IMG/VR virus record: IMGVR_UViG_3300045051_001512
Coordinates: 1-40,760 of that record
DNA from: a virus
Length of the DNA stretch: 40,760 bases
Direction: 5' to 3' (one strand)
The stretch's first letter is position 1. Each line of letters opens with the position of its first letter. Below are positions 2,609 to 40,760 of the stretch, one piece after another. The translations under genes and the position numbers were made by a program. Under the pieces are notes generated by a model. It worked only from the letters and a program-made list of their open reading frames with translations, did no database searches and was not told the origin of the DNA.

Positions 2609-3802
2609 ATGAAGACTAAAGTCGTCAATGAGGCTGGTGGAGGGCGTAGTCTGCGCGTGGAGCAGGTGGTGGGGATGTTTGACCTGGACGTGCAGAAGGC
2701 GCGGCGGGTGGAGGTGTCGGCCGAGTTGCCGGCTGCGGCCGGGGATTGGCGGATTGGGCTAATCGTGGGGCCGAGCGGCAGCGGGAAGAGCAGTGTAGCG
2801 CGGGCTGCTGTGAAGGCCGGCGGGGCGTGGGATGGGCTGGCGGATCTGTATGAGCCTGGTGTGCGGTGGCCAGCCGGCGCGGCGATGGTGGACGGGATGC
2901 CGGCGGGGGTGGGGATGAAGGAGATCGCGGGGATGCTGACGGCGGTGGGCTTGAGTAGTCCGCCGGCGTGGGTGCGGCCGTATGAGGTGCTGAGCGGCGG
3001 GGAGAAGTTTCGGGCGGATCTGGCGCGGGCGGTGCTGTCGGCCGAGCCGGGCAGCGTTGTTGTGTTCGATGAGTTCACCAGTGTGGTGGATCGGACGGTG
3101 GCGAAGGTAGGGAGCGCAGCTGTGGCGAAGGCGGTGAGGAGGATGAACGGACCAAAGCTGGTAGCGGTGACCTGCCACTACGACGTGGCGGAGTGGCTGC
3201 AGCCGGACTGGGTGGTGGACATGGGGGCTGGCGGGAAGTGCGTGTTTGCAGGGGCCGACCCTGCAAGGGGGTCTCTTCGGCGCCCCGAGATCTTCGGCAG
3301 GTTGTACCGGTGCCGGCCTGGGACTGGGGTTGGGCGGCGGCTATGGCAGACTTTTGGGAAACATCACTATCTAGACTCGAGCCTGCATCCGGCGGCACAG
3401 TGCTATGTCGGCGTAGTTGAGAAGATGGGCGATGTGGTGGTGGATGAGCCGGTGTGTCTGGTGGCGGTGCTGTCGATGACGGGCCGCGCGGGAAGGGATC
3501 GGATTAGTCGGGTGGTGGTGTTGCCGGACTGGCAGGGAATCGGGGTGGGCGGTGCTGTACTGAGGGCGGTGGCCGCTGACCGGGTGGGAATGGGGCGGCG
3601 AGTGAGCCTCGTGACGCGGCATCCTGGGATGCTGGCCGGGTTGAAGCGGGCGGGGAGCGGGTGGAAGTGTGTGGGTGCACTGCGGAACGGGCATCGGGCA
3701 GGTCGCAGCAAGAAGGTCGATGGCCGGATTATTGGGAGTGAGGCGCTGAGCCGCGGGCGGCCGGTGGTAAGTTTTGAGTACGTTGGTGGAGGACCCCGAT
3801 GA
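2609..3802 (+). CDS. ABC-type ATPase fused to GNAT acetyltransferase domain
   Basis: A 397-residue two-domain protein. Residues 1-215 are an ABC ATPase with every core motif: Walker A GPSGSGKS (54-61), signature LSGGEKFRADLARA (128-141), Walker B VVVFDEF (150-156) and switch His190. There are no membrane segments, so it is not a transporter subunit by itself. Residues 250-397 hold a GNAT domain with the acetyl-CoA loop RVVVLPDWQGIGVGG (301-315). The linker has a KHHYL...CY motif (251-265). Such fusions occur in phages and resemble Mom-like GNAT DNA-modification proteins, which suggests base modification or another anti-restriction role (inference). Its stop overlaps the next start. Confidence 0.8.
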   Translation: MKTKVVNEAGGGRSLRVEQVVGMFDLDVQKARRVEVSAELPAAAGDWRIGLIVGPSGSGKSSVARAAVKAGGAWDGLADLYEPGVRWPAGAAMVDGMPAGVGMKEIAGMLTAVGLSSPPAWVRPYEVLSGGEKFRADLARAVLSAEPGSVVVFDEFTSVVDRTVAKVGSAAVAKAVRRMNGPKLVAVTCHYDVAEWLQPDWVVDMGAGGKCVFAGADPARGSLRRPEIFGRLYRCRPGTGVGRRLWQTFGKHHYLDSSLHPAAQCYVGVVEKMGDVVVDEPVCLVAVLSMTGRAGRDRISRVVVLPDWQGIGVGGAVLRAVAADRVGMGRRVSLVTRHPGMLAGLKRAGSGWKCVGALRNGHRAGRSKKVDGRIIGSEALSRGRPVVSFEYVGGGPR

Positions 3803-25583: not shown

Positions 25584-25611
25584 TTGAATTGTCTAAATGC
25601 TGCGATATACT
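25584..25611 (+). promoter_or_regulatory. Sigma70-like promoter of the amidoligase cassette
   Basis: TTGAAT at 25584-25589 and TATACT at 25606-25611 are separated by 16 bp. Transcription would begin near 25618, giving a leader of about 50 nt that contains the GAGGAG ribosome site at 25657. It separates the cassette from the late operon, which ends at the terminator upstream, so expression in the lysogen is likely. Confidence 0.6.
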
Positions 25612-25668
25612 TCTTACATCAAATCAAACGAGTCGCTTATGGTGAGTGACGCAACTGAGGAGAATGAG

Positions 25669-26541
25669 ATGATCGCAAGCGAAATGACCTTCGGAGTTGA
25701 GATCGAGTGCTACATCCCGGTCGGGCTGATCGCCGACGGGACGGTTGTTGTGGGTGGGTATCACCGGGGCGTGCAGGTTCCTGCTCTGCCGGCGGGTTGG
25801 ACGGCCCAGCATGACGGCTCGCTGTATCGCGGGCGTCGGAGTCGTCGGGGTGTGGAGTTTGTGTCGCCGGTGTTGAAGGGGGCCGAGGGGCTGGGGCAGG
25901 TGAAGGCGGTGGTGGAGCAGCTCAAGGCTTGGGGCGCGACGGTGAATGAGACCTGCGGCTTCCACGTCCACATCGGCTTTCCGGCCGACAAGGCGGACGT
26001 GCTGGGCCGGCTGGTGGCGATCGTGTCGAACCATGAGACGGCGATCTATGCCGCGACCGGGACGAAGAGCCGCGAGCGCGGGGCGTTTTGCCGAAGTGTG
26101 CGGCGGGGCTTCAATCCGGCGGAGGCTGGCCGGCCGCTGGGTGAGTGGCAGAGCAATGGCCGGCATGACCGGTACCACCTGCTGAATGTGAAGCGGCTGG
26201 CGGATGGTGGTGGCACGGTGGAGTTCCGGGCGTTCGCCGGGACGCTGAACTTCGCCAAGGTGGCGGGGTACATCCGGCTGGCTTTGGGGATGGTGGAGAA
26301 GGCGTGGGCGACGAAGCGCCAGCCGAAGTGGACGCCGAAGGCGGTGTCGCCGACTTCGCCGATCGCCCGCAAGGGTGGGGTGGGTCAGACCGAACTGACT
26401 CGCCTCTACTACGCCTTGGGCTGGACGGCCGGGCGGGTGGATCGGGTGTACGGCGAGATTGTGGGGCCGGGCCTGCCGACTACCTACGGGCTGAAAAGGC
26501 AGCTGCTGAAACTGGCGGCGAAGTATGACCAGCGGCCATAG
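25669..26541 (+). CDS. Amidoligase (Amidoligase_2-type)
   Basis: A 290-residue enzyme. The ATG at 25669 was chosen because GAGGAG stands 6 nt before it. Motifs of the glutamine-synthetase-like amidoligases are present: GVEIE (9-13), GVEFVSP (61-67), CGFHVHIG (96-103) and VEFRAFAGTLN (184-194), whose acids and His would bind Mg-ATP. The family joins amines to carboxylates using ATP; the Pfam family is recorded next to glutamine-amidotransferase-like genes, and one lies two genes downstream. The substrate may be a peptide, the cell wall or a protein tail (unknown). It has its own promoter. Confidence 0.88.
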   Translation: MIASEMTFGVEIECYIPVGLIADGTVVVGGYHRGVQVPALPAGWTAQHDGSLYRGRRSRRGVEFVSPVLKGAEGLGQVKAVVEQLKAWGATVNETCGFHVHIGFPADKADVLGRLVAIVSNHETAIYAATGTKSRERGAFCRSVRRGFNPAEAGRPLGEWQSNGRHDRYHLLNVKRLADGGGTVEFRAFAGTLNFAKVAGYIRLALGMVEKAWATKRQPKWTPKAVSPTSPIARKGGVGQTELTRLYYALGWTAGRVDRVYGEIVGPGLPTTYGLKRQLLKLAAKYDQRP

Positions 26542-26590
26542 GGCCGCTGGGGGGCGGGGGTGGCAGGGGGTTGTCAGCGGGGGCGACTTT

Positions 26591-26613
26591 TGCGGAAGGG
26601 CAAGCCCTCCGCA
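26591..26613 (+). repeat. Short palindrome with AGGGCAAGCCC core
   Basis: TGCGG-A-AGGGC, AA, GCCCT-CCGCA forms an almost perfect hairpin between the amidoligase and HEXXH genes. Related cores (GGAGGGCAAGCCC) occur at 6064 inside the terminase gene and at 15594 after the capsid gene. It may be a REP-like dispersed palindrome or an mRNA processing site. Confidence 0.5.
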
Positions 26614-26630
26614 TGGAACTGGAGGCAGCA

Positions 26631-27065
26631 ATGAGCAGGCGAGATGAGTACCCGGCGACGGCGAGTGAGGAACTGCGGGAAGGGATGAAGTATCGGGCGG
26701 GGGCATTGGCGGCGGTGAGGCGGCTGCGGCGGGCTGGAGCGTGGCGCGGGGATGATGCCGTGCGGTTTGCGCGGTATGTGCGGTGTGTGGAGGAGCTGGC
26801 GGCGGTGTATGGGATGCGGACGCCGCGGGTGATCAGGGGCGGGCGAAAAACCGGGTGCAGTGGCGACAGCTGGTATTCGCCGATGGGGCACGCGATCTGT
26901 CTGCGGGGCCGGTTGAGTGTGGTGACGATGCTGCATGAGTTTGCCCATGCCCGGGGGTATGGGGAGCGGCGGGCGGTGCGGTGGAGCGTGAATCTGTTTC
27001 GGCGGGTGTTCCCGCGATCGTTTGAGAGGTGCAGGGAAGTGGGGCATGTGCTCGTGGCGAGGTAG
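26631..27065 (+). CDS. HEXXH metallopeptidase-like protein
   Basis: A 144-residue protein. GGAGG stands 5 nt before the ATG at 26631. The key motif is LHEFAHARG with His102, Glu103 and His106, the zinc-binding HEXXH of metallopeptidases, set in a predicted helix. The third ligand cannot be named with certainty. The protein is small, basic and without signal peptide, similar in layout to SprT-like or toxin-type minimal metallopeptidases. Lying between the amidoligase and the glutamine amidotransferase, it may cut the same substrate that those enzymes modify. Confidence 0.7.
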   Translation: MSRRDEYPATASEELREGMKYRAGALAAVRRLRRAGAWRGDDAVRFARYVRCVEELAAVYGMRTPRVIRGGRKTGCSGDSWYSPMGHAICLRGRLSVVTMLHEFAHARGYGERRAVRWSVNLFRRVFPRSFERCREVGHVLVAR

Positions 27066-27100
27066 TGACTGCAGTCTTTGACCGGAAAGTGAGGCTCGAT

Positions 27101-27826
27101 ATGTGCGCGATTTTTGGATTTGTGGCGGAGCAGGGGCAGGAGATGGACGTGAAGGAGATGGTGCGGATCGCCGAGGCGAACGTACGGCGCGGGCCGCATG
27201 CCTTCGGCTTCGCGTGGGTGGATGGGCGCGGCCGGCTGCGGATGTACAAGCAGCAAGGGGCGATTACCGACCACTTGGGAGTGCTGGCGATGGCACGGGG
27301 GGCGAGGATGTTTGTGGGGCATGTGCGGTATGTGACCCACGGCAGCGCCGAGGCGAACATCAACAACCACCCGCACGCGGCGGACGGTGGGTGGCTGGTG
27401 CATAACGGGGTGGTGACGAACTATGAGCAGCTGGTGCGGGCGCAGCGGCTGTGGCCGGTGAGTGAGTGTGACAGTGAGGTGCTCGGGCTGCTGGCGGAGC
27501 GGGCGGAGGGTGGGCTGCTGGGGCGCGTGGCTGGGGCGGTGACACAGACGACGGGCAACCTATGCCTGCTGGGGCTGTGGAGCCGGCCGGCGAAGCTGGT
27601 GGCGGTGCGGAGGGGCAACCCGCTGCATTGGAGCCAGACGAGCAGGGGTGTGTATCTGGCGACGCTGGCGATGGGACTGCCGGGGAATGCGCACGCCGTG
27701 CCGGACGGGCAGGGGTATCAGCTGGCGGTGCGGGGAGGGAAGGTGGTATCGCGGGCGGTGACGGTGGGGGTGAGTGCCGGCGAGCTGTGGGAGAGCAGTG
27801 CCGGCGGGGCATACCGGGGAGGGTGA
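27101..27826 (+). CDS. Class II glutamine amidotransferase (stand-alone)
   Basis: A 241-residue protein with GAGG six nt before the ATG. After removal of Met the catalytic Cys2 becomes N-terminal (MCAIFGF), as in GlmS/PurF/AsnB-type Ntn glutaminases. Further motifs are RRGPHAFGFAW (29-39), GHVRYVTHG (73-81), NNHPH, VHNGVV (100-105) and CDSE (123-126). Nothing like a synthase domain is attached. It should release ammonia from glutamine and would supply it, or a glutamyl group, to the amidoligase. The family context (amidoligase plus this enzyme) is documented for Amidoligase_2. Confidence 0.88.
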   Translation: MCAIFGFVAEQGQEMDVKEMVRIAEANVRRGPHAFGFAWVDGRGRLRMYKQQGAITDHLGVLAMARGARMFVGHVRYVTHGSAEANINNHPHAADGGWLVHNGVVTNYEQLVRAQRLWPVSECDSEVLGLLAERAEGGLLGRVAGAVTQTTGNLCLLGLWSRPAKLVAVRRGNPLHWSQTSRGVYLATLAMGLPGNAHAVPDGQGYQLAVRGGKVVSRAVTVGVSAGELWESSAGGAYRGG

Positions 27827-27885: not shown

Positions 27886-28455
27886 CTAAGGCCCAGGCTG
27901 TTTCGCCTGTGTGTTTTCAGTTTTCTTCCCCGCTGCTTCTTTGGCCACTGCTTCCTGTTCGAGAAAATCGAACCAAGACTGCAGATTTTTCTTAATCGTA
28001 AACATCACGATCAAAAGCAGTATGATCGTAAATCCTGCGAGCGTAATACAAAAGATGGCAGCAAGGCGGTATGGAACAAGTCCAATCGTAACCTGAGATA
28101 CTGCGGTTAGGAGTGATGAGAGAATCGCCCAAAAAAGGAAGGTGCTGAGGCGCTTTAGAGGACCGAAGTATGTCACATTCGATTTGCTGCCGTTTACTTT
28201 GTTGAGCTGACGCCTCGCGAGTGCTATCGATCGGTAGGAGTCGTGATCGTAGAGCTCCTTCTTCAGGTTTACAATGATGAACGTATTCACGGCAACAAGA
28301 AAACTGCCTAGTGTGAAAAAGCCAGTAAAAAAACTCACTCGTAGATTAGCGGCATAAAACGCGAAGACTTGATCCACCACTGGCGTTGCCATGTTCTGGC
28401 TGCCAATAATCGATTCCGGCAGGATCTGTGCGAGAATAGCTATTAAGTCCGTCAT
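27886..28455 (-). CDS. Three-TM membrane protein of a minus-strand pair
   Basis: A 189-residue protein with membrane segments at about 41-63, 104-126 and 131-154, a charged loop between TM1 and TM2 and a Lys/Glu-rich C-terminal tail. Its ATG overlaps the stop of the upstream gene (ATGA), so both are translated together. The pair sits in an AT-richer island facing the late genes. A membrane effector with a soluble partner is the general plan of phage exclusion systems such as RexA/RexB or Kiwa, but no similarity in sequence is claimed. It could also be a lysis or transport protein. Confidence 0.65.
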   Translation of the reverse strand: MTDLIAILAQILPESIIGSQNMATPVVDQVFAFYAANLRVSFFTGFFTLGSFLVAVNTFIIVNLKKELYDHDSYRSIALARRQLNKVNGSKSNVTYFGPLKRLSTFLFWAILSSLLTAVSQVTIGLVPYRLAAIFCITLAGFTIILLLIVMFTIKKNLQSWFDFLEQEAVAKEAAGKKTENTQAKQPGP

Positions 28456-29378
28456 GGGTTCACAGGGGACTCAAAAATGGCTTTTACTCCAGGATCACTG
28501 TTAACGACTCGGAGCATTTCCTCAAAAAAAGGCGATCTCTCAACCTCGGCAACATTCAGCGTTGTCTCGTCTGCGATGTCCTCATACTCAAACTCGGCAA
28601 ACTTGTCAGGATTTTCAATAAGACGATAGACTCGCTCTCGCTTCTCAGCATCCGTACCACCGACCCTACCCGTCGTGATTTGGCGATTCTGAATGGTTTC
28701 AATAATCGCATTGACTAGACCCACTTGCGCTGCTTTAAATCGGACTATGCGGCGGTTCTTCTTGACGAAGCGCTTCAAGGGCGTCATCCAAGGATCTGAT
28801 TCATCAATTGTTGCAATGTTGAAGTCAAAAAACTTAATCTGTTCCAGCTCTTCAAGCAGCTGTTTTAGGGACTCTTGCTTGACGATGTTCTCCCACGTCA
28901 GGGATCCCTTGTATGTTTTGTTCACACGTCTCTTGTCTCTTGGTGACGCACCGTCGCCCCCGACGTGTCCGAGATCAGCCTCAATTCGCGACTGCTTCAG
29001 CCCTTCATACTGTTGAGCACAAAAAATGCTAAATTGGTTAAAACTGCATGATTGATGGTAGTACTGGTAAAGGCCCCGGCAGGTCTTCTTGTTGATCATG
29101 AAAAAATTGAAATCACATAGATTATTGCCTTGATCTAATGACCGGACCGTGATCTTGAACTGGCCACCACTATCAGTGATCTCGGTGAAGCGGCGTTGAT
29201 CCTTTAGTTTTAGAAACAAGCCAACGTGATAGTCTTCCAATTGCCCCACATATAATAGTCGATCGTAATCTCCGAATCTTTCCCGTCGATCCTTAAGTAC
29301 AGCAAGGTGCGCAAAAAAATCATCGATTGCTATGCCCTGCCCGAGCTGCCAAATAAACCCTATAAGCTGTGCTTTCAC
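28452..29378 (-). CDS. Soluble partner protein of unknown family (candidate defence sensor)
   Basis: A 308-residue soluble protein. It starts with GTG, and AAAGGAG stands 6 nt upstream. It is rich in Phe, Asp, Lys, Arg and Gln with patches such as CDFNFFMINKKTCRGLYQYY (about 88-107) and CSFNQFSIFCAQQYE, which suggest a defined fold; a basic segment KRFVKKNRRIVRFK lies near 205. No TM or catalytic motif was recognised. It is the first gene of the minus-strand operon, driven by the promoter at 29429-29457, and its base composition differs strongly from the phage genes, which suggests acquisition. A role in defence is inference. Confidence 0.65.
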   Translation of the reverse strand: MKAQLIGFIWQLGQGIAIDDFFAHLAVLKDRRERFGDYDRLLYVGQLEDYHVGLFLKLKDQRRFTEITDSGGQFKITVRSLDQGNNLCDFNFFMINKKTCRGLYQYYHQSCSFNQFSIFCAQQYEGLKQSRIEADLGHVGGDGASPRDKRRVNKTYKGSLTWENIVKQESLKQLLEELEQIKFFDFNIATIDESDPWMTPLKRFVKKNRRIVRFKAAQVGLVNAIIETIQNRQITTGRVGGTDAEKRERVYRLIENPDKFAEFEYEDIADETTLNVAEVERSPFFEEMLRVVNSDPGVKAIFESPVNP

Positions 29379-29394
29379 CCGATTCTCCTTTCAG

Positions 29395-29447
29395 GCTGAC
29401 CCCCCGCTGTGGCCACTATTTTTTCGTGAGTTTAGCGGTGGGTCAGC
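29395..29447. repeat. 14-bp inverted repeat at the defence-type promoter
   Basis: The arm at 29395-29408 (GCTGACCCCCCGCT) and the arm at 29434-29447 (AGCGGTGGGTCAGC) are complementary at 13 of 14 positions, with 25 bp between. The right arm touches the -10 box and the left arm lies in the leader. This fits an operator bound by a dimer or a looped structure in the 5' UTR. Confidence 0.6.
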
Positions 29448-29457
29448 AATTTCTCAA
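29429..29457 (-). promoter_or_regulatory. Promoter of the minus-strand pair
   Basis: On the minus strand TTGAGA (29457-29452) and TAAACT (29434-29429) stand 17 bp apart. Transcription would start near 29422, leaving about 44 nt before the GTG at 29378, with the AAAGGAG site inside. It overlaps the inverted repeat at 29395-29447. Confidence 0.55.
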
Positions 29458-29786: not shown

Positions 29787-29816
29787 TTGACTTGGCGTTT
29801 TGGTGTTTGGTATAAG
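29787..29816 (+). promoter_or_regulatory. Leaderless-type promoter for bet-like gene
   Basis: TTGACT (29787-29792) and TATAAG (29811-29816) stand 18 bp apart. The ATG at 29824 is 7 nt downstream of the -10 box, so a leaderless transcript is predicted. There is no ribosome site before that ATG. Confidence 0.6.
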
Positions 29817-29823
29817 TTTGGGT

Positions 29824-30999
29824 ATGCAAACATCGACCAAGCAAACAGGTGGCAGCAGGCTGGAGCAGATGCTTTTTGAGGAGGTGGACGGTGTGGCAGT
29901 GGCGGTGATGCCGGCGGAAGGGGCGGGCGAAGGCGTTCGCTACATGAGGCTGGTGGAGGCGGAGAAGCGGTTTGGGGTGCCGAAGGAGGTGCTGGCGGAT
30001 CTTTGGGACTCGAACGCCAGGCGGTTCGCCGTGGACGTGGTGGACGAGTTTGATGCCGGCGAGGGTGCGACTAGGCCAGGGGCCGGGGAAGTGGCTGAGA
30101 ATGCGGCGGGCGCAGATGGACGAGATTCTGGCGGGGTGGGTGAAAGTAGTCCACGGGAACAGGCGGCGCTGCAGCAGCTGCGGTTGGCGAAGTATCCGGC
30201 CCTGACCGGTGAGCAGTGGGAGTACTTCCTCGAGGTTTGCCGGCAGCGGAAGCTGAACCCGTGGGCGCGGCAGCTGCTGGCAGCGCTGGAGCCGGCGGAG
30301 CGGAAGCGGGATGCGGATGAGAAGGGCAGTGGCTTTGAGCTGGCGCTGATCATGTCGATCGAGGGGATGCGGCTGGTGGCGCACCGGACCGGCCTGTACG
30401 CAGGGATCGATGAGATCGAGTTCGGGTGGGGAGAAGACCCGCGGTACCCGGCGAGTGCCAAGGCCACGGTGTACCGGCTGGTGGGTGCTCCAGGTGCCAG
30501 AGAGCGGGCGTCGTTTGTGGCCCGGGCCTACTGGTCGGAGTACGCCCCGGCGATCGTGGAGGGGACGCTGTGGGAGCGGATGCCGCGGGTGTGCATGGAA
30601 AGGCCGGCGGAGGCGATGGCACTGCGCAGGGCGTTTCCGGCGGAGCTGGGCGGTATCTACGTGGCGGAGGAGGGTTTGGGCAGCCGGCAGGCGGCTGACA
30701 ATGGGAGTCGGGATGGAGCGAGGCGGGTGGTGGCGGCCGGGGAGGATGACCGGATGGTGTCAGCGGCGGGCCTGTCCGAGGGCGAGATGCCGGCGGGGGA
30801 GGACGGGCCGCAGACGCGGCGGCAGTGTGAGCTGGAGCTGCTGGAGCTGGGGGTGACGCCGGCGGCTGCGAGGGAGGCGGTGATCGGGCGGTTTGCTGCG
30901 GCGTATCCTCACTTGGTGGGGACGCCGGGGCTTTATGGGCTGGTGGTGCGGGAGGTGCGGAAGCGGCCGGGTGATTATCGGGGTGGGACGGGAGGGTAG
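29824..30999 (+). CDS. bet: Phage recombination protein Bet/RecT-type ssDNA annealing protein
   Basis: A 391-residue protein. The central part carries the Bet/RecT signature: LTGEQWEYFLEVCRQRKLNP, WARQLLA, FELALIMSIEGMRLVAHRTGLYAGIDE. These proteins anneal complementary single strands during phage recombination. The N-terminal 95 residues and the C-terminal tail are extensions rich in Glu, Gly and Ala. There is no adjacent exonuclease, which usually accompanies Bet, so RdgC-like or host nucleases may serve. A promoter with the -10 box 7 nt before the ATG suggests a leaderless message. Confidence 0.82.
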   Translation: MQTSTKQTGGSRLEQMLFEEVDGVAVAVMPAEGAGEGVRYMRLVEAEKRFGVPKEVLADLWDSNARRFAVDVVDEFDAGEGATRPGAGEVAENAAGADGRDSGGVGESSPREQAALQQLRLAKYPALTGEQWEYFLEVCRQRKLNPWARQLLAALEPAERKRDADEKGSGFELALIMSIEGMRLVAHRTGLYAGIDEIEFGWGEDPRYPASAKATVYRLVGAPGARERASFVARAYWSEYAPAIVEGTLWERMPRVCMERPAEAMALRRAFPAELGGIYVAEEGLGSRQAADNGSRDGARRVVAAGEDDRMVSAAGLSEGEMPAGEDGPQTRRQCELELLELGVTPAAAREAVIGRFAAAYPHLVGTPGLYGLVVREVRKRPGDYRGGTGG

Positions 31000-31087: not shown

Positions 31088-31801
31088 ATGAAAGAAATCA
31101 ATCCGTTTGACGGTGATTCGGTGATGTCGGAGATTGGGGAACTGGTCCCAGTCATTCTGCGCGAGGCCATGGACAGCGGGTTTGATGCATTTCGCAAAAG
31201 CCGTGAATTGGATGCGGTCGGGTTCAACGACTACCGCCAGAGCACCTTGGCGAACATGCTGGCGGATCGTATCTATCCTTTTTTGATTTCGCTTTCTGAG
31301 GCTGCTGATCCGGAGGGTCTCCACCTTCGCACTCGTCTGACACAAAACGGGCGAGCGACCGAGCTTTTGATCGGTTCAGAATTTTACACGAAGGTCAAAC
31401 GAATTAAGGATAGGATTCGGCCTTCAACGCTCGATGATGATGTTGAAGTTGATGACGTGATGGAACTTCAGATCATCGAGGAAGGCATGCCGCAAAACAT
31501 CCCCACTGGTCGCGTGATGCGTCAGCGGTCTCCCAGTGCATACACGGGCACGCAGCTCACCTTGCCTGGAGTGGCGCCGGTACAGGTTCCTGATGACGGC
31601 CGCGAGCGGCTGTGTTTGGTTGCAGGCTTTGATCTTGATTTGACAGAAGAACGGATAGAGCGACATCGAATCGGACTTTATGGTTCGACTCAAGTTTTTT
31701 GGACAAGTCGTTTGCCCGAATTGGAGTTGGATGCAATCGCGAGGATATCACCGACGTTGTACGAACGAGTGACCGTCTTACGCCAAGTACGGCAGGCGTG
31801 A
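31088..31801 (+). CDS. Unknown partner of XRE-ImmA regulator
   Basis: A 237-residue acidic protein of unknown family. The N-terminal half is helical (EIGELVPVILREAMDSGFDAF, LADRIYPFLISLSEA) and the C-terminal part beta-rich (ERLCLVAGFDLDL, GLYGSTQVFW). It is expressed from a consensus promoter and its stop TGA lies 1 bp before the ATG of the XRE-ImmA gene, so the two are certainly an operon. Such pairs can be toxin-antitoxin, repressor plus anti-repressor, or stress sensors. Codon use is less GC-extreme than in the late genes. Confidence 0.6.
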   Translation: MKEINPFDGDSVMSEIGELVPVILREAMDSGFDAFRKSRELDAVGFNDYRQSTLANMLADRIYPFLISLSEAADPEGLHLRTRLTQNGRATELLIGSEFYTKVKRIKDRIRPSTLDDDVEVDDVMELQIIEEGMPQNIPTGRVMRQRSPSAYTGTQLTLPGVAPVQVPDDGRERLCLVAGFDLDLTEERIERHRIGLYGSTQVFWTSRLPELELDAIARISPTLYERVTVLRQVRQA

Positions 31802-31802
31802 T

Positions 31803-32987
31803 ATGACCCACCAAACCGTCAACCTCAAAATGCCTCAGAATCCGGCGGCCGGCGAAATGCCATTGGGTTCGAGCGGATTGATTCGCAGTGGCGAGTTTAA
31901 TCCAAACATGCTCACTACGGCCCGCGACGCACGACGGATGACCCAAGCCGAGCTCGCCGATCAGATGGATGTCAGCCAACCTCTCATCAATCAGTGGGAG
32001 GCCGTCGCGATCCCCGGTGAGCAGGTTAAGCGTCCCGGTGTTGAACAAGTCGACAAGCTTTGCAGGCTGCTGAACTTACACCCATCGTTCTTCTACATTT
32101 CCAGACCCACGCGGTTGGCAAATCTCTCAGAATTTTATCACCGCGCATTCGCCAAAGCCAAGCGATTGGATGTCAAAGCGGCGCATGCGCGGTGTGGCAT
32201 ATATGACTTGCAGGTAGATCGTCTGCTCCAGCTCTGCCCACCACTTGAGGACCGGATACCAGACATCGACCCCGACAATCACGCCGGCAATGTCGATAAG
32301 ATAGCAGCGATGGCGCGTGCACGCATGGGTGTGCCTCCCGGGCCCGTAGAGAATCTCGTTGATCTAATCGAGTCGAGCGGTGGGATCGTGATTGACCGCG
32401 ACTTAGAGATTGAAAGTGTCGATGCACTTTGTCGTTGGGTGCCGGGGTTGCCGAAGCTGTTTTTTCTCAACGGCGATAGGCCTGGAGATCGGATGCGATT
32501 GACCCTCGCACATGAACTTGGGCACACAATCATGCACTTCAATCGAGACGCTGAGATCGATGTGGCGGAGATGCAAGCACAGCGATTTGCGGCGGCTTTC
32601 CTCCTGCCGGCCACCGAGATTCGAGCCGATTTGGGTGTGAAACTCGATCTCCCGAAGCTGATGGCGCTCAAACGCAAGTGGCGTGTTTCCATGCAGGCTA
32701 TCGCATACCGCGCTCACCAGATAGGTTGTATCGACAAGACCCGTTACACGTCGATTTTCCAACAGCTTTCACGGCAAGGCTGGCGGAAGTCGGAGCCGGT
32801 TGAAGTTCGGAGAGAGTCGCCTCGGGCGTTCAAGCGCCTTCTTCGTGCCCATCTTGATGCGGGGTACACCCATGACCAGCTTGCGGAAATACTGCTCGTC
32901 AGCCTTGAGGAATTAGGACAGATGCTTGTTGATGGGGCATCTCCTGATTGGCAGGACACGGGGGTGCGAATGCGGATTGCGCGTTGA
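31803..32987 (+). CDS. XRE-type HTH plus ImmA/IrrE metallopeptidase protein
   Basis: A 394-residue regulator. Residues 37-70 form a helix-turn-helix of the XRE type (TTARDARRMTQAELADQMDVSQPLINQWE split over two helices). The centre holds AHELGHTIMHF with His237-Glu238-x-x-His241, the zinc site of ImmA/IrrE peptidases; AAAFLLPATE follows as usual. Such proteins cleave or inactivate repressors, or act as antitoxin with the gene in front. It may autoregulate the promoter at 31045. It could thus govern the lytic switch, as no classical CI-type repressor is visible elsewhere. A terminator follows. Confidence 0.85.
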   Translation: MTHQTVNLKMPQNPAAGEMPLGSSGLIRSGEFNPNMLTTARDARRMTQAELADQMDVSQPLINQWEAVAIPGEQVKRPGVEQVDKLCRLLNLHPSFFYISRPTRLANLSEFYHRAFAKAKRLDVKAAHARCGIYDLQVDRLLQLCPPLEDRIPDIDPDNHAGNVDKIAAMARARMGVPPGPVENLVDLIESSGGIVIDRDLEIESVDALCRWVPGLPKLFFLNGDRPGDRMRLTLAHELGHTIMHFNRDAEIDVAEMQAQRFAAAFLLPATEIRADLGVKLDLPKLMALKRKWRVSMQAIAYRAHQIGCIDKTRYTSIFQQLSRQGWRKSEPVEVRRESPRAFKRLLRAHLDAGYTHDQLAEILLVSLEELGQMLVDGASPDWQDTGVRMRIAR

Positions 32988-39500: not shown

Positions 39501-40760
39501 ATGAGTAACCCGCATCCCAATGTCAGTCTGTTTGAGCGTAAGGGCCGTCGAGGCATCTACGGACGCGTCAACTTCAACGGCGAGAGCTGGGAAGTGAAGG
39601 CCGGTGATGACCAGAAGACGGCCACGCGGACGGCGCTACTGATCAGCCAAGATCTCGAGCTGGTGCGGCGCGGGCTCAAGTCGTTGGCGGACGTGCGGGG
39701 GGATACGAAGAAGGTGTCGCCAGTGAGTCTGCTCCAGGAGCAGTTTGAGCGTAGCCTGATCGACGCGGGGGTAAGCGAGTTTCACAGGCTGACGGTGAAG
39801 CAGCGGGTGCGGGACCTGTTTGAAGCTGCGGGGATTGAGCGACTGTCGGGCGACTATGGCAGGAAAGTGCTTGGGGCGTTGGTCAGGATGCGGGACCAGG
39901 GGGCGGCGGCACAGACCCTGAAGCACTACCGGCAGGCTGTCCGGCAATTTGAGAACTGGATGGTCCAGCGAGGCCATGTGACACAGAAGCTCATCCACAA
40001 GGCCACCGGTGAGATGAGGATCAACGTGGCGGCCGACCGCAGGCACCGCCGGCGGGCGTGGACCGAGGTTGAGCTGAGGAAGCTGTTGACCTATCTGCGG
40101 AACGACCAGCTGAGGGTGGAGAAGGCCAGAGCGGAGGGGCGCCATGGGGTAAAGGGTCAGCAGATGACACCTGGGGATCGGGCGTTGTTGTATGAGTTTG
40201 CGATTGCCACGATGCTGCGGGCGGGAGAGATCAGGTCACTGACGGCAGCCAGCTTCAAGCTGGACGGCAAGCAACCGCATGTGGTGCTCAAGGCTCAGGA
40301 CGAAAAGGCACGTCGGGGAGCCCGGCAGCCCATTCCATCGGCGCTGGTGCCGAGGCTCAAGGAGCTGGTGGCACGATCGACCGGCCGGGTCTTCCAGTGG
40401 ATGGGCGAAGTGCCGGCCAAGATGCTCAAGCCCGATCTGATCGCGGCCGGCATCCTCTACAAGACCGACGAGGGGGTGCTGGACTTCCACAGCTTCCGGC
40501 ACAGCGGCGGGGCCCACCTGGTGAGGGCAGGCGTGAATGTGAAAGTGGTGCAGTTCCTCATGCGGCACAAGTCGATCAATCTGACCTTGGACACCTACGG
40601 GCACCTGATGCCGGGAGATGAGCTCAATGCGACGGAAATCGGGTACGGTTGGGTTGGAATCTGTTCACCGTTTTGTTCACAGGTTCAGGGTCAAAAAATG
40701 GGATTTACTGAGACACAAGGGAACACCGAAACGGAGGTATCGCACGGCGATGGAATCTGA
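39501..40760 (+). CDS. int: Tyrosine recombinase (phage integrase)
   Basis: A 419-residue integrase, complete and ending exactly at the window end. The catalytic domain has Arg240 (MLRAGEIRSL), a lysine in the KAQDEKARRG beta hairpin, His330xxArg333 (HSFRHSGG), His356 (MRHKSINLTLDTYGHL) and Tyr366 as nucleophile. The N-terminal part contains an arm-binding region and a SAM-like core-binding domain (about 75-165). The C-terminal tail of about 45 residues after Tyr366 is Gly/Thr/Glu-rich and unusual. It would join attP to a host att site outside the window; the excisionase lies upstream. Confidence 0.92.
   Translation: MSNPHPNVSLFERKGRRGIYGRVNFNGESWEVKAGDDQKTATRTALLISQDLELVRRGLKSLADVRGDTKKVSPVSLLQEQFERSLIDAGVSEFHRLTVKQRVRDLFEAAGIERLSGDYGRKVLGALVRMRDQGAAAQTLKHYRQAVRQFENWMVQRGHVTQKLIHKATGEMRINVAADRRHRRRAWTEVELRKLLTYLRNDQLRVEKARAEGRHGVKGQQMTPGDRALLYEFAIATMLRAGEIRSLTAASFKLDGKQPHVVLKAQDEKARRGARQPIPSALVPRLKELVARSTGRVFQWMGEVPAKMLKPDLIAAGILYKTDEGVLDFHSFRHSGGAHLVRAGVNVKVVQFLMRHKSINLTLDTYGHLMPGDELNATEIGYGWVGICSPFCSQVQGQKMGFTETQGNTETEVSHGDGI

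Follow-up and report, generated by a model that had tools for sequence, protein, structure and literature searches.

The window, by which is meant the whole stretch of 40,760 bases that was analysed, contains at 27886-29457 a pair of overlapping genes on the minus strand with their upstream sequences. Gene 1 (28452-29378, minus strand) encodes a soluble protein of 308 amino acids from a GTG start with AGGAG 6 nt upstream (ribosome-binding site AGGAGAAT, 29382-29389, minus strand). Gene 2 (27886-28455, minus strand) encodes a membrane protein of 189 amino acids, and its ATG start overlaps the TGA of gene 1 by 4 nt. This ATGA overlap (28452-28455, minus strand) makes translational coupling of gene 1 to gene 2 likely. 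The arrangement agrees with that given in a preliminary description made from the DNA alone, and both are real genes, since their homologues have been conserved together.

The unlike base composition reported in the same description is also evident. The GC content of the pair is 46.5%, compared with about 63% for the contig as a whole, and is the lowest in the contig; among 786 sliding windows of the pair's length only two were as low, both of them overlapping the pair, and the next-lowest region (53%) is found at 31.0 kb. The claim that the pair stands against all of its neighbours has to be corrected. The two large flanking genes, a GATase gene (27029-27826) and a RecT gene (29800-30999), are indeed on the plus strand, but a probable zinc-ribbon ORF (29520 to about 29744, minus strand; CPKC...CDTC) shares the strand of the pair directly upstream of its promoter, and further minus-strand ORFs are found at 33.1-34.6 kb. 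Transcription of the zinc-ribbon ORF could read through into the pair.

A promoter and an operator-like repeat belonging to the pair had also been proposed, and sequences of both kinds are present. The putative sigma-70-like promoter, TTGAGA-17-TAAACT (29429-29457, minus strand), was found by a consensus scan and is a weak site that matches the consensus at 9 of 12 positions; three such sites occur in the region against 1.5 expected, and a match of this quality is by itself no evidence of promoter function. The inverted repeat consists of two arms of 14 nt, GCTGACCCCCCGCT and AGCGGTGGGTCAGC, which are complementary at 13 of 14 positions. The arm proximal to gene 1 (29395-29408, plus strand) lies downstream of the promoter and the other (29434-29447, plus strand) in the promoter spacer and around the -10 element. 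It is the best inverted repeat in the 160 nt upstream of the pair, none of 40 shuffled sequences gave its equal, and exact copies of the half-site are absent from the rest of the window. The position of one arm within the promoter spacer favours a DNA operator over an RNA hairpin. None of the relatives examined shares the repeat, and it was rejected as a conserved feature of the family.

The contig carries genes for a terminase, a portal protein, a head protease/capsid protein and a tape measure protein, and an integrase gene at its right end (39501-40758); it therefore belongs to a temperate tailed phage. The relatives of the portal protein are remote, with at most 26% identity among the best matches listed, and searches with the RecT and portal proteins as queries found no near relative of the phage, and hence none with an empty site in place of the pair.

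Three other regions of the window, all on the plus strand, deserve mention. At 31088-32987 a 237-aa protein of no known family is followed after 2 bases by a protein with an HTH and an M78 protease domain, which matches the PADLOC models of the RmrA antitoxin (2.4e-59). RosmerTA systems combine RmrA with diverse toxins (PMC10440598), and the two genes are a candidate defence pair of this type whose toxin belongs to no recognised kind. They fall in the stretch of the phage with the second-lowest GC content, so that a second defence-like module is located 2.4 kb from the pair described here. At 25597-27826 an amidoligase (PF12224, 1.5e-25), a 164-aa protein with a metalloprotease-like HEFAH motif and a class II glutamine amidotransferase are encoded consecutively, a cassette that possibly modifies a peptide or the cell wall. 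At 2609-3802 a 397-aa protein of phrog_11143, a group of unannotated function, matched the PADLOC mad3 model in part (2.7e-13), probably through a domain in common and not as a member of a MADS system.

The soluble protein matches phrog_2802, annotated as "unknown function", with residues 1-288 aligned to positions 1-294 of the profile (E=4.8e-38), and its E. coli relative matches the same profile (4e-185). The group is not named in any paper of the literature searched. Scans of both proteins against Pfam, NCBIfam and PADLOC gave no match above chance, the membrane partner had no named family in these or in PHROG, and the soluble protein had no match on plasmids. The earlier statement that no known family was matched is therefore right as to function. 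Homology to a metabolic or transport family, which would have spoken against a defence role, was found for neither protein.

Relatives were collected from IMG/VR, bacterial genomes and lambdoid phages and fell into 35 sequence groups on clustering at 85% identity. Identity to the window copy ranged from 22 to 36% for the soluble proteins and from 30 to 42% for the membrane proteins. When the membrane protein was searched independently of the soluble protein, 66 loci were obtained, and in every one of them the soluble gene was directly upstream of the membrane gene, in overlapping or near-abutting order. The overlap was mostly 4-49 bases, with 14, 29, 4 and 41 nt as the commonest lengths. Conversely, the loci found through the soluble protein had the membrane partner in all cases except one, which was cut by the end of its contig. 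The pairwise distance matrices of the two proteins correlated with r = 0.94, a value not reached in any of 5000 permutations. The constant gene order and this correlation show that the pair is an obligate module that travels and evolves as one unit. In three viral contigs (L043, L044 and L061) and one genome (G256) the soluble gene was split or contained a stop codon; the membrane gene was intact in the three viral contigs, which suggests that there the sensor decays while its partner is retained.

The pair was lower in GC than its flanks in all 35 groups, by 0.15 on average, and with a crude longest-ORF caller both flanking genes ran opposite to the pair in 16 of the 35, and at least one of them did so in 27. 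The genomic sites are unrelated to each other. In lambdoid enterobacterial phages the pair is antisense between the Q antiterminator gene and the lysis genes; in one locus (L004) it is antisense in the tail module, between a tape-measure-like gene and other structural genes; in another locus (L006) it is near a gene for a DnaB-type helicase, and in a Pseudomonas locus (L127) beside a tyrosine-recombinase-like gene. The copies in Alteromonas, Kangiella and Pseudomonas are likewise at unrelated sites. Low GC content, antisense placement and unrelated sites are the marks of imported cargo (moron) genes. Of 5,426 complete E. coli genomes, 219 (about 4%) carried the lambdoid version, of which the pair in ON470598 (L002, 3911-5372) is an example. 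It was always on the chromosome, and 218 of these copies had at least 99% identity and one had 76%. In evenly sampled genomes the family is rare (3 of 400 for Pseudomonas and 2 of 399 for the phylum, seed genome included). The association with mobile elements, the lack of which the preliminary description had named among the things that would speak against defence, is strong.

The AlphaFold model of the soluble protein, a monomer built from 35 aligned sequences, had a pLDDT of 88 and a pTM of 0.78. The top Foldseek match in the PDB was lambda RexA (8twq; E=1.9e-6, probability 1.00, 337 alignment columns), which was also the single fold match below 0.001. Ranks 2 and 3 were both E. coli RdgC and rank 4 was chain N of the human CCAN complex, which we take to be CENP-N, the orthologue of yeast Chl4; given this orthology, the matches to RexA, RdgC and chain N make up the same group as has been reported for RexA. 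RexA itself is related to RdgC and to the kinetochore proteins IML3/CHL4 (PMC11077077). In the published topology of RexA, a seven-stranded globular domain is split by a dimerisation sheet with helices and closed by a C-terminal helix. The order of elements in the model agrees with this, with seven main strands predicted in residues 2-106, a second sheet in 161-254 and C-terminal helices. The full-length TM-scores were low (0.32-0.34, with an rmsd of 13 Å over the full length), so that, as modelled, the match to RexA is better for the domains than for their arrangement. Low scores would be expected if the two domains were oriented differently; the crystal structure of RexA is of a closed state, from which the protein is believed to open when it binds DNA (PMC11077077). 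The protein has no transmembrane segment and, with a pI of 6.5, is not basic overall. In a PDB sequence search with both family profiles the only low E-value was for a portal protein (0.0022, about 70 residues); this match had no support from the fold search and was taken as chance.

The membrane protein has three segments in the window copy according to hydropathy (46-64, 106-124 and 134-152), as stated in the preliminary description. An additional N-terminal segment is seen in nearly all relatives, and hydropathy counted four segments for 21 of the 34 family members and three for the others. The family plan, as read from the sequences, is probably one of four transmembrane helices, with the first (N-terminal) helix predicted to be weak or lost in the window copy; the weakness of this segment explains why only three are seen there. 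The AlphaFold model was all-helical (pLDDT 86.7), and neither sequence profile nor fold search gave a significant match in the PDB. Ten residues are invariant in this conserved family (A4), namely R39, F43, G45, G50, L53, F59, Y74, L103, Q121 and G125, and they cluster in the second family helix, immediately ahead of it, and in helix 3. Basic residues abound in the loop between family helices 2 and 3 and in the C-terminal helix, and both are therefore predicted to be cytoplasmic by the positive-inside rule.

In lambda, RexA is understood to be a sensor in the cytosol and RexB the membrane channel that it activates. The likeness of the pair to RexA/RexB and other exclusion pairs, proposed in the preliminary description from its general plan, is supported by the structural model, for which lambda RexA is the top match and RdgC the second. 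A close counterpart is RexABpp of Pseudomonas putida, a pair of a RexA-fold DNA-binding protein and a four-TM protein, which is required for phage defence and in which overexpression of RexApp leads to RexB-dependent growth arrest and membrane leakage and damage (PMC12894663). The pair is probably a Rex-type module for phage exclusion (abortive infection), carried by a prophage and belonging to a sequence family distinct from lambda RexAB, and by analogy its most likely effect is to prevent the growth of other viruses in cells that harbour it.

Gene 1 would then encode the infection sensor or activator and gene 2 an inner-membrane protein acting as the membrane-damaging effector. The soluble protein, whose predicted RexA/RdgC fold places a dimerisation domain between N-terminal strands and C-terminal helices, would probably dimerise as a DNA clamp, by analogy with RexA and RexApp, and on the same grounds may detect either the replication or recombination state of a phage or a phage protein. 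It might activate its partner through the positively charged loop between helices 2 and 3 or through the long C-terminal helix. Once activated, the membrane protein would oligomerise and permeabilise the inner membrane, by analogy with lambda RexB and RexBpp, and growth of the infected cell would be halted before new phage is made. In the lysogen the pair may be expressed from its own antisense promoter, apart from lytic transcription, and the inverted repeat may control this expression. We infer DNA binding, triggering, pore formation and exclusion alike.

The same two-part plan can be wired in the opposite way. In gp30/gp31 of mycobacteriophage Butters the roles are reversed (PMC12894663), and if this applied here the soluble protein would be a toxic effector held inactive at the membrane by its partner. 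The tight gene overlap and the coevolution of the two proteins would fit such a sequestering pair, but in P. putida and lambda the roles are the opposite, and the invariant small and polar residues in predicted helices (G45, G50, Q121 and G125) are more than a simple anchor needs; we consider inverse wiring unlikely. Slightly less probable still is a pair that mainly tunes the lysis-lysogeny decision of its own prophage, the RexA-fold protein binding phage DNA and biasing the switch, the membrane protein restraining it and exclusion being a side effect. There is a precedent in lambda, where RexA without RexB can push the CI/Cro switch in the lytic direction and RexB antagonises it (PMC11077077). 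The many unrelated sites away from a repressor, however, fit self-contained cargo better than a regulator of one switch, and the membrane partner accompanies the soluble protein at every locus found through the latter save the truncated one.

A function outside defence, such as superinfection exclusion at the envelope, lysis control or a contribution to host fitness, is least probable of all and in our view improbable. It is brought to mind by the lambdoid pair, which adjoins the lysis genes, but this pair is antisense to the lysis operon and GC-poor, and the family also occupies sites free of lysis genes, in the tail module and near the helicase gene mentioned above. To our knowledge, moreover, the RexA fold does not occur among lysis proteins.

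Lambda Rex exclusion is the oldest known abortive-infection phenotype. By January 2026 only five RexAB-like systems had been listed (PMC12894663). With the present results a predicted RexA fold and an obligate membrane partner are assigned to a PHROG without a function, present in hundreds of phages and prophages. A wider reading, which we hold with somewhat less than even confidence, is that the pair represents a large unrecognised Rex-like exclusion family across phages of Pseudomonadota, in which a DNA clamp of the RexA/RdgC fold works with a membrane effector that has no homology to RexB. On this view one sensor fold would have acquired different pore proteins as partners on more than one occasion, and the family would be carried as free-standing antisense cargo and not as a part of the immunity region, in about 4% of E. 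coli among others. The lambdoid version in E. coli, with its 219 complete genomes, is a tractable form, and the 35 diverged natural pairs make the matching of sensor and effector and the identification of the trigger directly testable.

Compared with lambda RexAB, the pair is alike in the predicted RexA fold, the gene order, the probable four-TM plan of the partner and its occurrence in a temperate phage. It differs in that lambda rexAB adjoins the CI repressor in the immunity region and is co-transcribed with it, whereas the window pair is flanked by the GATase and RecT genes and has overlapping genes and a putative antisense promoter of its own. Lambda RexA and RexB belong to phrog_12654 and phrog_14878, and the soluble protein matches phrog_2802 but not phrog_12654. 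With hhalign the comparison of the soluble protein with RexA was not significant (P=0.23 for the single RexA, P=0.039 for an alignment of five sequences, including a 29%-identical RexA from a RexA-RexB pair found in a bacterial genome), nor was that of the membrane protein with RexB (P=0.9, and P=0.36 against a family of four sequences). Homology was still not significant after the RexA and RexB families had been enlarged from phages and 369 gammaproteobacterial genomes. Because the sequence comparison falls short of significance, common descent with RexA is supported through the predicted fold and not through sequence. The pair is thus outside the strict lambda RexAB sequence family, having neither the profile similarity nor the location in the immunity region; by kind, in its fold, gene order and membrane partner, it is Rex-like. 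The diverged lambda-type RexA-RexB pair of the bacterial genome (L130, 1029-2343, minus strand) is 29% and 20% identical to lambda, its genes overlap by 71 nt, and it has an epimerase-like gene and no obvious repressor as neighbours.

Kiwa (KwaA/KwaB) likewise consists of a soluble protein, about 310 aa long, and a small protein with several TM segments. It was dropped as a candidate because PADLOC gave no match at E<1 and it was absent among the best 50 fold matches listed. The Rex-like pairs of actinobacteriophages (Sbash gp30/31, CarolAnn gp44/43, Toast gp42 and Butters gp30/31) consist, as here, of a soluble and a membrane gene, with longer soluble proteins (337-403 aa compared with 308 aa), and profile comparison with the single sequences of Butters gp30 and gp31 revealed no similarity. 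Some of these pairs, too, are inverted and stand apart from the repressor (PMC11077077), and location therefore does not exclude a Rex-like kind.

RexABpp of P. putida prophage P1 (PP_5643/PP_5644; PMC12894663) is closely analogous to the pair, as judged from its published description. A search among the loci for RexBpp by its published mutated residues (W25, F35, L55, T103, S145, G153 and Y181) found no locus that fits. RexABpp is located downstream of a CI-like repressor, which the window pair is not. In both cases the gene for a soluble protein of the RexA fold (predicted for the window pair) and the gene for a membrane protein, with four TM segments in RexABpp and a probable family plan of four here, are consecutive and prophage-borne, and the soluble proteins are of similar length, about 320 aa for RexApp (37.5 kDa with its His tag; PMC12894663) and 308 aa here. 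The partner in RexABpp is likewise without detectable sequence similarity to RexB, and the system was found by fold and not by BLAST (PMC12894663). Because the pair has the same anatomy as RexABpp, wiring of the kind proposed for lambda and P. putida is the best explanation for it.
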